A stretch of 55,016 bases of DNA from Pseudomonadota bacterium (lineage in GTDB: Bacteria; Pseudomonadota; Gammaproteobacteria; Acidiferrobacterales; Acidiferrobacteraceae): contig JAJYHM010000022.1 in NCBI GenBank assembly GCA_021784755.1, positions 38,719-93,734 of the forward strand, read 5' to 3'. Positions 4,158-7,108 of the stretch are shown here, one piece after another. The notes below the pieces were generated by a model. It saw only the letters and a list, made by a program, of their open reading frames with translations, was not told where the DNA came from and did no database searches. Positions within the stretch are counted from its first letter, which is position 1, and each line of letters starts with the position of its first letter. The translations under genes were made by a program, and so were the position numbers.

Positions 4158-4171
4158 TTGATGGATATCAA
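4158..4171. promoter_or_regulatory. Perfect FNR box between the divergent ubiUV and nrdDG operons
   Basis: TTGATGGATATCAA matches the FNR consensus TTGATNNNNATCAA at all ten fixed bases. Taking it as centred at -41.5 (class II activation), the minus-strand promoter would have its -10 at 4130-4135, which reads TAGACT on that strand. The plus-strand -10 would be at 4194-4199, TATTGG. So one site could activate both units. An FNR orthologue is encoded at 12857-13591. The match is seen; the promoter geometry is inferred. Confidence 0.85.
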
Positions 4172-4232: not shown

Positions 4233-6233
4233 ATGGCCGTCTCATACCCTGATAGCGTACGCAAACGCGACGGTCGCGTCGTACCCTTCGATGATCGCAA
4301 AATCTACTATGCACTCCTGCGCGCTGGCCTCGCTACGGGCGAGTATGGACCCGATGAAGCGACCCTCATGACGGAGCAGGTGGGTGCGCGCGCGCCCGCC
4401 GGCAGCCCAGATGTCGAAACCATCCAGGACCTCGTAGAGGATAACCTGCTCGCGCACGGTCATAGACGCACCGCCCGCGCCTATATCGTCTACCGGGAAA
4501 AACGCCGCCTGACCCGCGAACAAGGCAAGGTGCGCGTCGAAGTCGAAGAGGCCATCACCGAGTACCTCGACCGCCGCGACTGGCGCGTGCAGGCCAATGC
4601 CAACCAGGGCTACTCCCTAGGCGGGCTGATACTGAGCGTCTCCGGCAAAATGGTTGCAAACTTTTGGCTGAATCACGTCTATCCAAAAGAGGTGGGCGAG
4701 GCCCATCGCGACGGCGCCCTGCACATCCACGATCTCGACATGTTGTCAGGCTATTGCGCGGGCTGGTCGCTGCGCACATTGCTCACGGAAGGGCTGAACG
4801 GGGTCGCGAACAAGGTCGAGGCGAACCCTCCGAAACACCTCTCGAGCGCCGTGGGTCAGATCGTGAACTTCCTTGGGACGCTGCAGAACGAATGGGCCGG
4901 GGCGCAGGCCTTCAGTTCCTTTGACACCTATCTCGCGCCGTTCGTGCGCAAAGATCACATGCGCTATGAAGACGTCCTGCAGTGCATCCAGGAGCTCATT
5001 TACAACCTCAACATCCCGTCGCGCTGGGGCACGCAGACACCTTTCACGAACCTGACGTTCGACTGGACCTGTCCCGCGGATCTACGCGATCAGGTGCCCC
5101 TCATAGGGGGCGAAGAGATGCCCTTTACCTATGGTGACCTCGCACCTGAGATGGCTATGATCAACAAGGCCTACCTCGAGGTTATGGAAACGGGGGACGC
5201 CAAGGGCCGGGTCTTCACCTTCCCGATACCGACCTACAACATCACCCCCGACTTCGAGTGGGAAGGGGAAAACGCCGAACGGCTCTTCTCTCTTACTGCC
5301 AAATACGGCCTTCCGTATTTCCAGAATTTTCTGAACTCCGACCTCAAGCCGCACATGGTGCGGTCCATGTGTTGTCGCTTGCAGCTGGACCTGACAGAAC
5401 TCCTAAAGAGAGGGAACGGCCTCTTTGGCTCGGCGGAACAGACGGGGTCGCTTGGCGTCGTCACGATCAATTGCGCCCGCTTAGGCTATCTGCACAGGGG
5501 CGATGAGCCCGGTCTCTTCCGCAATCTCGACCAACTCCTCGAACTTGCACGTACGAGTCTCGAGATCAAGCGCAAGACCATACAGACCTATATGGACCAG
5601 GGGCTATTCCCCTACACGAAGCGCTATCTGGGCACGCTACGCAACCACTTCTCGACGATAGGCATCAATGGGATCAACGAGATGGTACGCAACTTCACGG
5701 CCGAGGAGGCGGACATCACGGCACCGCAAGGTCATGCCATGGCATGCCGCCTTCTCGATCATATGCGCGGGCGGCTCACGGAGTTTCAGGAGCAGACGGG
5801 ACACCTCTATAACCTCGAGGCGTCGCCGGCCGAGGGCGCGACCTACCGGTTCGCGCGCGCCGACCGCAAACGCTTCCCTGGCATCTGCCAAGCCGGGACG
5901 GCCGAGCGCCCCTATTATACCAATTCGTCCCAGTTGCCGGCGGGATTCACGGACGACCCCTTCGAGGCACTGGAACGCCAGGAGGACCTGCAGAGACGCT
6001 ACACAGGGGGGACGGTATTGCACCTCTACTTGAACGAGCGCCTATCGAGCCCTTCGGTCGCGCGCGATTTGGTACGACGGGCCTTGGGGCGCTTTCGTCT
6101 GCCCTACATCACCATTACACCGACCTTTTCTATATGCCCGCGTCACGGTTATCTCGCGGGCGAGCACCCCTTTTGCCCGATCTGCGACGAAGAAGCGTGG
6201 GCCCGGCGACGGACTTTGGCGCAAGCCGAGTGA
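4233..6233 (+). CDS. nrdD: Anaerobic (class III) ribonucleoside-triphosphate reductase, catalytic part lacking the glycyl-radical tail
   Basis: 666 residues. An ATP-cone domain occupies about residues 7-95 (VRKRDGRVVPFDDRKIYYAL), followed by the ten-stranded barrel with SGYCAGWSL and VVTINCARLGY, which carry the conserved active-site cysteines. The C-terminal zinc motif is CPRHGYLAGEHPFCPIC. Standard NrdD proteins continue past this motif into a glycyl-radical segment (RxxGY). Here the frame stops 13 residues after it, and that segment is encoded by the adjacent gene at 6243. The enzyme makes dNTPs from NTPs under anoxia using a radical generated by NrdG. AAGGAG lies upstream of the ATG. Expression is probably FNR-dependent through the box at 4158-4171. 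Confidence 0.95.
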   Translation: MAVSYPDSVRKRDGRVVPFDDRKIYYALLRAGLATGEYGPDEATLMTEQVGARAPAGSPDVETIQDLVEDNLLAHGHRRTARAYIVYREKRRLTREQGKVRVEVEEAITEYLDRRDWRVQANANQGYSLGGLILSVSGKMVANFWLNHVYPKEVGEAHRDGALHIHDLDMLSGYCAGWSLRTLLTEGLNGVANKVEANPPKHLSSAVGQIVNFLGTLQNEWAGAQAFSSFDTYLAPFVRKDHMRYEDVLQCIQELIYNLNIPSRWGTQTPFTNLTFDWTCPADLRDQVPLIGGEEMPFTYGDLAPEMAMINKAYLEVMETGDAKGRVFTFPIPTYNITPDFEWEGENAERLFSLTAKYGLPYFQNFLNSDLKPHMVRSMCCRLQLDLTELLKRGNGLFGSAEQTGSLGVVTINCARLGYLHRGDEPGLFRNLDQLLELARTSLEIKRKTIQTYMDQGLFPYTKRYLGTLRNHFSTIGINGINEMVRNFTAEEADITAPQGHAMACRLLDHMRGRLTEFQEQTGHLYNLEASPAEGATYRFARADRKRFPGICQAGTAERPYYTNSSQLPAGFTDDPFEALERQEDLQRRYTGGTVLHLYLNERLSSPSVARDLVRRALGRFRLPYITITPTFSICPRHGYLAGEHPFCPICDEEAWARRRTLAQAE

Positions 6234-6242
6234 GGAGGAAAC

Positions 6243-6422
6243 ATGAACGCGATCAAAGAAGGTAAGGAAGAACGGGGCGGTCTTCGCCCCGAGGAGCGTC
6301 AGCCATGCGAAGTGTGGACAAGGGTGATGGGCTACCATCGACCTGTGGCGTCGTTCAACGAGGGCAAGAAGGGCGAGCACTACGAGCGGAGGTTCTTCGT
6401 GGAGAGCCGGCTGTCGACCTAG
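6243..6422 (+). CDS. Separate glycyl-radical domain of class III ribonucleotide reductase (59 aa)
   Basis: A 59-codon gene begins 9 bases after the nrdD stop, behind a strong ribosome site (TGAGGAGGAAACATG) that uses the nrdD stop bases. It encodes RVMGYHRPVASFNEGKKGEH at residues 27-46, which matches the glycyl-radical segment of NrdD (R-x-x-GY, then a N-x-GK-x-x-E run), with Gly30 as the expected radical site. The N-terminal 25 residues are charged and linker-like. Since nrdD itself ends before this segment, the protein presumably docks into NrdD and is activated by NrdG. A programmed or accidental frameshift joining the two is the alternative, but the dedicated start and ribosome site argue for a real separate gene. 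Confidence 0.82.
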   Translation: MNAIKEGKEERGGLRPEERQPCEVWTRVMGYHRPVASFNEGKKGEHYERRFFVESRLST

Positions 6423-7108
6423 CCTTAGGACTGGGCGGCCTCGTGCCCTGGAGTAGCGTCGACTACCCGGGGCATCAGGCCGCTGTTTTGTTCGTCGGTG
6501 GCTGCCCCTGGCGCTGCCCCTACTGCCACAATAGTCATCTCTGGGAGACCCAGACCGGCCTGTCGTGGGCGGCCGCGCGGGCGTTTCTCGAAAGCCGGGT
6601 GGGCCTCCTGGATGCCGTGGTCATGAGCGGTGGCGAGCCCCTCGCGCAAGCCACCGCAGTCCGCGAAGCCCTGATCGAAGCACGCCTGCTCGGTTTCGCG
6701 ACGGCCCTGCACACTGCGGGCGTATCTCCGCGGCGCTTCGAGAATCTTCTCGGATATATCGATTGGGTCGGGCTCGATGTGAAGGGGCCGTTCTCGAAAT
6801 ACGACGCCATCACTGCACGCAAAGGAAGCGGCGAAGCGGCGCGCGCGTCGGTGGAAATACTGCTGCAAAGCGGAAAACCTTACGAGTTGCGCACAACCGT
6901 CCATCCGGCCCTACTGTCGGACGCGGATCTCCTGGCCATGGTGGCGGAAGTTGTGGCCATGGGCGCGCGCTCGATGACCTTGAAGAGCTTTCGCCCGACC
7001 GGCTGCCCGGATCCAGAGCTCTCGGCGGCCTATCGCCCCTGGCTTACACCCGCCCTCGCAAAGGCGCTGCGCGCCATCATGCCGACAGTAGTGCTGCCCG
7101 GCCATTGA
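6305..7108 (+). CDS. nrdG: Anaerobic ribonucleotide reductase activating protein (radical SAM)
   Basis: 267 residues as drawn. The radical SAM motif is GGCPWRCPYCHN (C67, C71, C74), preceded by VDYPG and followed by SGGEPL and DVKGPFSKYD, typical of the longer NrdG type (TIGR02495-like). The enzyme installs the glycyl radical on NrdD. The conserved part begins near residue 42 (LGLGGLVPWSSVDYPG), and the only ATG upstream is at 6305. That ATG has a good ribosome site (GAGGAG, 8 bases upstream) but lies inside the glycyl-radical gene in another frame, giving a 118-base overlap. Alternatives are CTG 6431 or GTG 6443, the latter with AGGA 12 bases upstream. Function is secure, the start is not. 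Confidence 0.88.
   Translation: MRSVDKGDGLPSTCGVVQRGQEGRALRAEVLRGEPAVDLALGLGGLVPWSSVDYPGHQAAVLFVGGCPWRCPYCHNSHLWETQTGLSWAAARAFLESRVGLLDAVVMSGGEPLAQATAVREALIEARLLGFATALHTAGVSPRRFENLLGYIDWVGLDVKGPFSKYDAITARKGSGEAARASVEILLQSGKPYELRTTVHPALLSDADLLAMVAEVVAMGARSMTLKSFRPTGCPDPELSAAYRPWLTPALAKALRAIMPTVVLPGH

Follow-up and report, generated by a model that had tools for sequence, protein, structure and literature searches.

Class III ribonucleotide reductases (RNRs) are described as a reductase, NrdD, and its activase, NrdG, with the glycyl radical carried on NrdD (available text of PMC4009431 and PMC2795772). In the accessible part of PMC4493059, a 5'-deoxyadenosyl radical made by NrdG takes the hydrogen atom of the glycine, after which the radical passes to a cysteine. 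The locus presented here lies in a 55,016-nucleotide stretch of contig JAJYHM010000022.1 (assembly GCA_021784755.1, Acidiferrobacteraceae), hereafter the window, and its sequence very probably specifies a class III RNR of two polypeptides, in which an NrdD without radical glycine is served in trans by a glycyl-radical domain (GRD) of 59 residues encoded as a separate gene.

The locus shares with the class III NrdD/NrdG systems of T4, Escherichia coli, Thermotoga maritima and Prevotella copri the barrel, ATP-cone, zinc motif, finger-loop cysteines, RxxGY loop and NrdG activase, and departs from them in that the GRD is a separate polypeptide. Its RSMCCR and GLFGS motifs, read by eye, match those of the NrdDh4 subgroup (MCCR and a finger-loop Phe), for which the accessible part of PMC4493059 mentions no separate GRD. 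Small stand-alone GRDs that serve a partner enzyme are known as GrcA/YfiD and, from a phage, T4 Y06I (partial texts of PMC8683613, PMC12338860). Their partner is pyruvate formate-lyase, whereas the partner in the window is an RNR without a GRD of its own, so that the small protein should be obligatory. The partner of GrcA/YfiD has its own GRD, unlike the only NrdD core of the host assembly, which is incomplete. As far as the text of PMC8683613 extends, only two such spare parts, both for pyruvate formate-lyase, have been validated, and others may exist. An RNR chain likewise spread over two neighboring open reading frames (ORFs) is NrdJa/NrdJb of Pseudomonas aeruginosa (PMC4009431, in part), but this enzyme is class II, and NrdJb contains an IscU-like and a zinc-finger domain and no radical domain (PMC9669993, in part). 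Phage nrdD genes also occur in pieces, but through introns, inteins and broken coding regions, with no free GRD in the accessible text of PMC3653736. A class III radical domain on a chain of its own is not described in the literature searched, which includes the available portions of PMC9531940, PMC11226230, PMC11528403, PMC8463856, PMC5645315, PMC3019208 and PMC2864759; Siedow 1999 and Wei 2014 may say more.

Organization of the nrdD-GRD-nrdG locus

The nrdD gene runs from an ATG at 4233 to a TGA at 6231-6233 and encodes 666 residues. Its product matches positions 2-530 of the 562-position Pfam NRDD profile (E 7.8e-170), identifying the class III catalytic domain, contains an ATP-cone (E 1e-18 in a Pfam search), reaches 1087.1 bits against NF006126 of NCBIfam, and has the class III fold, judged from the second-look list of structural matches. 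The chain itself carries no glycyl-radical motif, the NRDD match stopping at position 530. The GRD of the system is found on the small downstream ORF, which matches only the last 33 NRDD positions (530-562, E 1.6e-7) and positions 550-579 of TIGR02487 (E 1.2e-5); the radical glycine expected of such a domain is Gly30 (codon 6330-6332), within the loop RVMGYHRP. The activase follows: ORF 6305-7108 matches TIGR02495 (NrdG2) with E 2.5e-50 and 170.5 bits (cut-off 131.15). The host assembly, 85.65% complete, contains one NRDD core and one separate piece, the GRD. A preliminary description, made from the sequence alone, had reported an nrdD without radical-glycine segment, a separate 59-residue gene with its own strong ribosome-binding site, and Gly30 as radical glycine, and had proposed searching the small protein against PF13597 and TIGR02487; the matches above agree with it throughout. 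It also had nrdD ending 13 residues past the zinc motif: the position of the end stands and the distance does not, the motif CPRHGYLAGEHPFCPIC occupying residues 635-651 with 15 residues remaining after it. Coordinates are collected in Table 1.

Table 1. Features of the nrdD-GRD-nrdG locus, in window positions.
Feature	Position	Strand	Basis
Palindrome TTGATGGATATCAA, presumably of FNR/ANR type	4158..4171	+	about 75 bp upstream of nrdD
nrdD, putative catalytic subunit (ATP-cone and barrel; stops past the zinc motif)	4233..6233	+	PF13597 2-530/562, PF03477, NF006126
MCCR codons, motif with the presumed thiyl-radical cysteine	5367..5378	+	read from the sequence; motif class per PMC4493059 (in part)
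Zinc motif CPRHGYLAGEHPFCPIC, end of nrdD	6135..6185	+	sequence
AGGAGG ribosome-binding site of the small gene	6233..6238	+	sequence; overlaps the A of the nrdD TGA
Stand-alone GRD gene, 59 residues	6243..6422	+	Pfam NRDD, TIGR02487, conservation
nrdG, radical S-adenosylmethionine activase	6443..7108	+	ORF open from 6305; conserved part from about GTG 6443; start chosen by eye

Since no stop interrupts the nrdG frame for a long way back into the small gene, the start sites may overlap or be coupled. Upstream of nrdD, the palindrome, which we take to be a site for an FNR/ANR regulator, is the sole match in the window, against 0.06 expected in shuffled sequence. Like sites occur in 12 of 72 loci examined: at -74 to -76 in all seven near relatives (L033-L039), within 400 bp upstream in four more and inside the gene in one; the chance level is 0.014 per stretch.

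Conservation of the split in relatives

In the window, nrdD and the small ORF share one frame, with the TGA and three further codons between them, an arrangement for which read-through and nonsense mutation needed testing. Across the genus and family loci, the frame of the small gene relative to nrdD is 0, 1 or 2, and the nrdD stop is TAA, TAG or TGA. The median ratio of nonsynonymous to synonymous substitution rates (dN/dS) is 0.065 for the conserved part of the small gene, from 57 usable pairs out of 91, and for nrdD it is 0.076, from 79 out of 91. This frame and selection analysis covers 14 of 18 loci, L010, L013, L014 and L020 having been skipped by a strict pattern. A Shine-Dalgarno-like motif of 5-6 bases precedes the small-gene ATG in all 14, a result favored by the script, which picked the ATG for the best such motif. 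Among 80 relatives fetched by NrdD sequence, 74 have the two genes split and adjacent, 4 are fused (L082, L083, L084, L086) and 2 received no assignment; the spacing from nrdD stop to small-gene ATG ranges from -44 to +171 nt. The script reads the + strand only and missed 10 of 98 loci for that reason, plus L078 and L094, the two relatives without assignment. The GRD of L078 is on a different contig of its genome, and L094 (L165; Gracilibacteria) is split under genetic code 25. Its core match contains 34 TGA codons and its GRD match 2, and the genome seems to read TGA as an amino acid.

These data weigh on readings in which a fused enzyme only looks divided. An ordinary nrdD hit by a nonsense mutation or an assembly error would account for two in-frame ORFs with a single TGA between them in the window, but the three frames and three stop codons of the relatives, the small gene's own ATG, its purifying selection and the 74 of 80 split relatives leave this reading practically no probability, and rule out mutation, pseudogene and assembly error alike. 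An origin of the small ORF by chance is ruled out by its NRDD profile match, conservation and purifying selection. Programmed stop read-through (or selenocysteine insertion) or frameshifting, yielding a fused chain after all, would fit the in-frame TGA of the window and the in-frame TAA between the two genes of 16 Campylobacterota genomes. However, frame and spacing vary freely, the relatives are split, and some genomes have nrdD and GRD unlinked, which makes this reading extremely unlikely, and it was rejected. Thus, with three frames, three stop codons and a small-gene dN/dS of about 0.065, the split is neither an error nor a read-through site. The preliminary description had named a continuous nrdD in close relatives, or a small ORF lacking conservation, as evidence that would overturn the split; the genus relatives share the split, and purifying selection on the small ORF is strong. 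The genome survey it had suggested, for nrdD genes ending at the zinc motif and followed by a small ORF, returns the 74 split relatives, and the spread of the split, which it had left open, is wide.

Distribution across bacterial phyla

Phylum counts were read by hand from tables, with the center genome included and NRDD-bearing genomes as denominators. The split is common in the sampled Campylobacterota (59/75; 150 genomes searched), Alphaproteobacteria (25/35; 289 searched, a sample overlapping the pseudomonadotal one, with G870 counted as fused), Patescibacteria (at least 28/52; 192 searched) and Verrucomicrobiota (at least 19/56, with two NrdD types; 79 searched). It occurs in 15 of 57 Pseudomonadota (398 searched) and, besides the genome G701 considered below, in 1 of 70 Actinomycetota (246 searched). 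The campylobacterotal count combines 43 short NrdDs and 16 in-frame stops, all 16 checked by sequence; the patescibacterial one, 24 separate matches and 4 checked in-frame cases; 6 of the 19 verrucomicrobial cases are in-frame and checked. In-frame stops alone were not taken as a split: one set of sequence checks found all 13 Campylobacterota examined, both Patescibacteria and 5 of 6 Verrucomicrobiota to be split, G1432 not.

A short NrdD is accompanied by a GRD in the same genome in 13/13 Pseudomonadota besides G000 (G395, with a partial sub-cut-off match, was left out), 23/23 Alphaproteobacteria, 43/43 Campylobacterota (G1108 on a sequence check), 24/24 Patescibacteria and 13/13 Verrucomicrobiota, the exception being the actinomycetal G701, and no genome with a GRD match and no NrdD match was seen in the phylum surveys. 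A plasmid collection contains GRD-like stretches in 29 records, some of them fused. One is pHG1 of Cupriavidus necator H16 (L113), where the small gene is already named nrdD in the public annotation. NrdD of this strain is split, its catalytic chain having 676 residues and 76.19 kDa; Siedow et al. 1999 reportedly gave 76.2 kDa for NrdD.

Several NrdD genes depart from both layouts. In G1459 (L351) and G1432 (L385), nrdD is broken by a mid-gene stop, unlike the GRD split. An NrdD ORF of 1004 residues in a Buchananbacteria metagenome-assembled genome (L101:2983-5994) is about 320 residues longer than its relatives, the extra part possibly being an intein. L185 has two NrdD-like genes side by side, one with GK, not GY, at the radical glycine.

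Genomic linkage of GRD genes

Genomic neighborhoods tie the GRD to the activase. In 113 of the 119 adjacent nrdD-GRD loci with room for a further gene (several genomes occur twice), the next gene is nrdG. Detached GRDs follow the same pattern: four of five (those of G1081, G371, G469, G987 and G817) directly precede nrdG. In G1081, nrdD shares a 1.85-Mb contig with three GRDs, the closest of which lies about 95 kb away and immediately before nrdG; some 9.5 kb separate the two matches of G371, and in G469, G987 and G817 they lie on different contigs. This adjacency, detached copies included, indicates a tendency of the radical domain to stay together with its activase. The extra GRD copies, for example the two others of G1081 and three of G716, are not followed by nrdG.

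Multiple copies are seen in G716 (one NrdD, four GRD genes, L196-L199) and G462 (one NrdD, three GRDs, L162/L163/L166). In G1308 and G1260, the survey gave a GRD match far from NrdD that a pattern search did not find again (L388, L389). Four Actinomycetota (G535, G611, G523, G643; L188-L191) encode proteins of roughly 110 residues in which a GRD of canonical type (RRITGYLVGT) is combined with an additional N-terminal part, and their genomes also hold a fused NrdD; these are candidate GrcA-like spare parts for an ordinary NrdD.

Viral and prophage copies

Scanning IMG/VR with a GRD profile yielded 408 relatives, of which the best 80 were kept; a second query returned 36 rows, 35 of which are new loci. 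With one locus from a phage collection (L208), 116 viral loci were examined, two contigs having been fetched twice. In 113 the GRD stands alone, the fetched stretch containing no NrdD core, a figure that holds for these best matches and does not extend to all 408 relatives; the GRD is separate beside an NrdD in two (L214, L295) and fused in one (L208). Whole-record searches of 50 viral contigs (13-183 kb, possibly fragments) found the GRD only in 49 and also an NrdD in one (L214, viral record G1347, whose GRD is separate from an NrdD core that gives two matches interrupted by a gap).

Gene content supports a phage setting for part of these loci. A structural or packaging gene lies near the GRD in 7 of 10 viral loci tested with two proteins each: terminase (L228), portal (L233), head-tail adaptor (L253, L305), tail (L260), terminase and portal (L277) and tape measure (L289). 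The tested proteins of L275 include no structural gene, and those of L212 and L213 had no PHROG match. Among five bacterial loci tested, L200 (terminase and endolysin adjoining the GRD) and L163 (terminase, tail) are prophages; the tested proteins near the GRDs of L203 and L205 had no PHROG match, and L192 had one of unknown function. L345, tested apart from these five, had none. Phage identity at L212, L213, L203, L205, L192, L275 and L345 therefore rests on IMG/VR or on appearance. In Verrucomicrobiota, the GRDs of L332, L333 and L349 adjoin Sak4-like annealing, single-stranded-DNA-binding, helicase or exonuclease genes, and that of L336 is near a tail fiber gene.

Among viral GRDs, dN/dS is 0.159 (251 pairs), and all 93 distinct sequences retain the radical glycine, although the search motif itself contains that glycine. 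None of the 101 stand-alone viral GRDs with room has an adjoining nrdG (12 more lack room). Of 19 members of the GRD profile, 16 match phrog_4132, a family annotated as of unknown function. That some uncultivated phages and prophages carry the small piece alone suggests an exchangeable part.

Evolution and sequence signature of the free GRD

For 68 NrdD cores, of which 38 are split and 30 fused, a quick tree requires 9 changes of state, at least 6 of them forced by starred branches; shuffled labels need 22 on average, and 0 of 500 shuffles were as low as 9. Manual curation changed the labels of L170, L184 and L185 from split to fused and added L157; the placement of three long branches (L170, L184, L185b) is unsafe. 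The fused forms of Actinomycetota (L082, L084, L114) fall inside a 27-row clade with 23 split members (SH-aLRT 99), and L157/L158 form a separate, independently split lineage. The root was not inferred, so gain and loss of the split are indistinguishable.

In free GRDs, the residue at position -6 from the W/Y/F of the motif is an Arg in 99% of the separate cellular sequences (119 distinct) and in 100% of the viral ones (93 distinct). It is present in 2 of 19 distinct fused forms (L168, and another in which it follows a zinc CxxC), and many fused forms have the zinc CxxC at -10/-7. This Arg may be a docking residue. G870, a single fused frame of 762 codons, also has the Arg and retains the N-terminal segment that characterizes free GRDs, as though the joining were recent.

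Proposed mechanism and alternatives

In the two-polypeptide enzyme proposed here, the nrdD product (ATP-cone, barrel, MCCR finger loop, zinc finger) would be the catalytic subunit, devoid of radical glycine, the 59-residue protein the radical subunit and the nrdG product its activase. NrdG would abstract a hydrogen atom from Gly30 of the small protein, which would dock in the NrdD barrel at the site of a fused C-terminus and pass the radical to the finger-loop cysteine; after cleavage by oxygen, the small subunit would be exchanged. Association in trans, as first put forward from the sequence, is supported by the genomes with unlinked nrdD and GRD; the association itself we infer. By analogy with GrcA/YfiD, the radical domain of such an enzyme is probably replaceable.

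A number of observations weigh against this proposal. No biochemistry on any split pair was found in the literature searched. At 85.65% completeness, the host assembly could be missing a second, complete NrdD. The predicted structure is a single read-through chain, not two chains, and confidence in its GRD is modest, with a predicted local distance difference test score of about 62-67. The NrdD of G701 (L331, Actinomycetota) stops past the zinc motif and a GRD was not found in that genome, and the detached GRD of G817 (L325) has no adjoining nrdG. Split forms also occur in Patescibacteria, so an advantage under oxygen damage is not obvious, and bacteria with a fused NrdD may likewise respire; that oxygen favors the split is something we only infer. 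In a collection of 50,697 phage records, none of four queries retrieved a stand-alone GRD: one matched MT835493 (the fused NrdD of L208), two matched this record and ANMV-1 virus (under an annotated anaerobic RNR), and one matched nothing. The viral claim consequently rests on IMG/VR contigs and prophages.

The small protein might instead be a GrcA/YfiD-like spare part for a complete NrdD and not an obligatory subunit, as extra GRD copies in genomes with split NrdD and the GRD-bearing proteins of four Actinomycetota with fused NrdD would allow. This is very unlikely for the window: the sole NrdD core of its (incomplete) assembly lacks a GRD, and in the great majority of linked loci with room (113/119, some genomes twice) the gene right after the GRD is nrdG. 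A wider reading that we entertain, at slightly less than an even chance given the negative search of phage records, is that a detached GRD is an exchangeable cofactor, replaced after oxygen cleavage and present in several copies in some genomes, and that phages of these hosts carry their own to keep or restart anaerobic deoxynucleoside triphosphate synthesis of the host during infection. For the phage copies, a decoy that blocks the host RNR or ties up NrdG is a less likely, though still credible, role: the same conserved residues would also permit competition, and no nrdG stands beside the stand-alone viral copies (0/101 with room), but every one of the 93 distinct, motif-selected viral sequences keeps the radical glycine, and dN/dS is 0.16.

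Implications

The published picture cited above has the glycyl radical on NrdD; in the genomes examined, members of several bacterial phyla have the radical-bearing part as a free subunit. Databases restricted to full-length entries in which every key motif is present, the rule of RNRdb in the accessible text of PMC2795772, could pass over split enzymes. With the radical part as a free subunit, activation and radical transfer could be treated as separate parts, to be examined and swapped individually, and the idea of spare glycyl-radical parts beyond pyruvate formate-lyase, raised in the available portion of PMC8683613, becomes testable. The viral GRDs (phrog_4132) would be a means, consisting of one small gene, to influence anaerobic DNA synthesis of the host.
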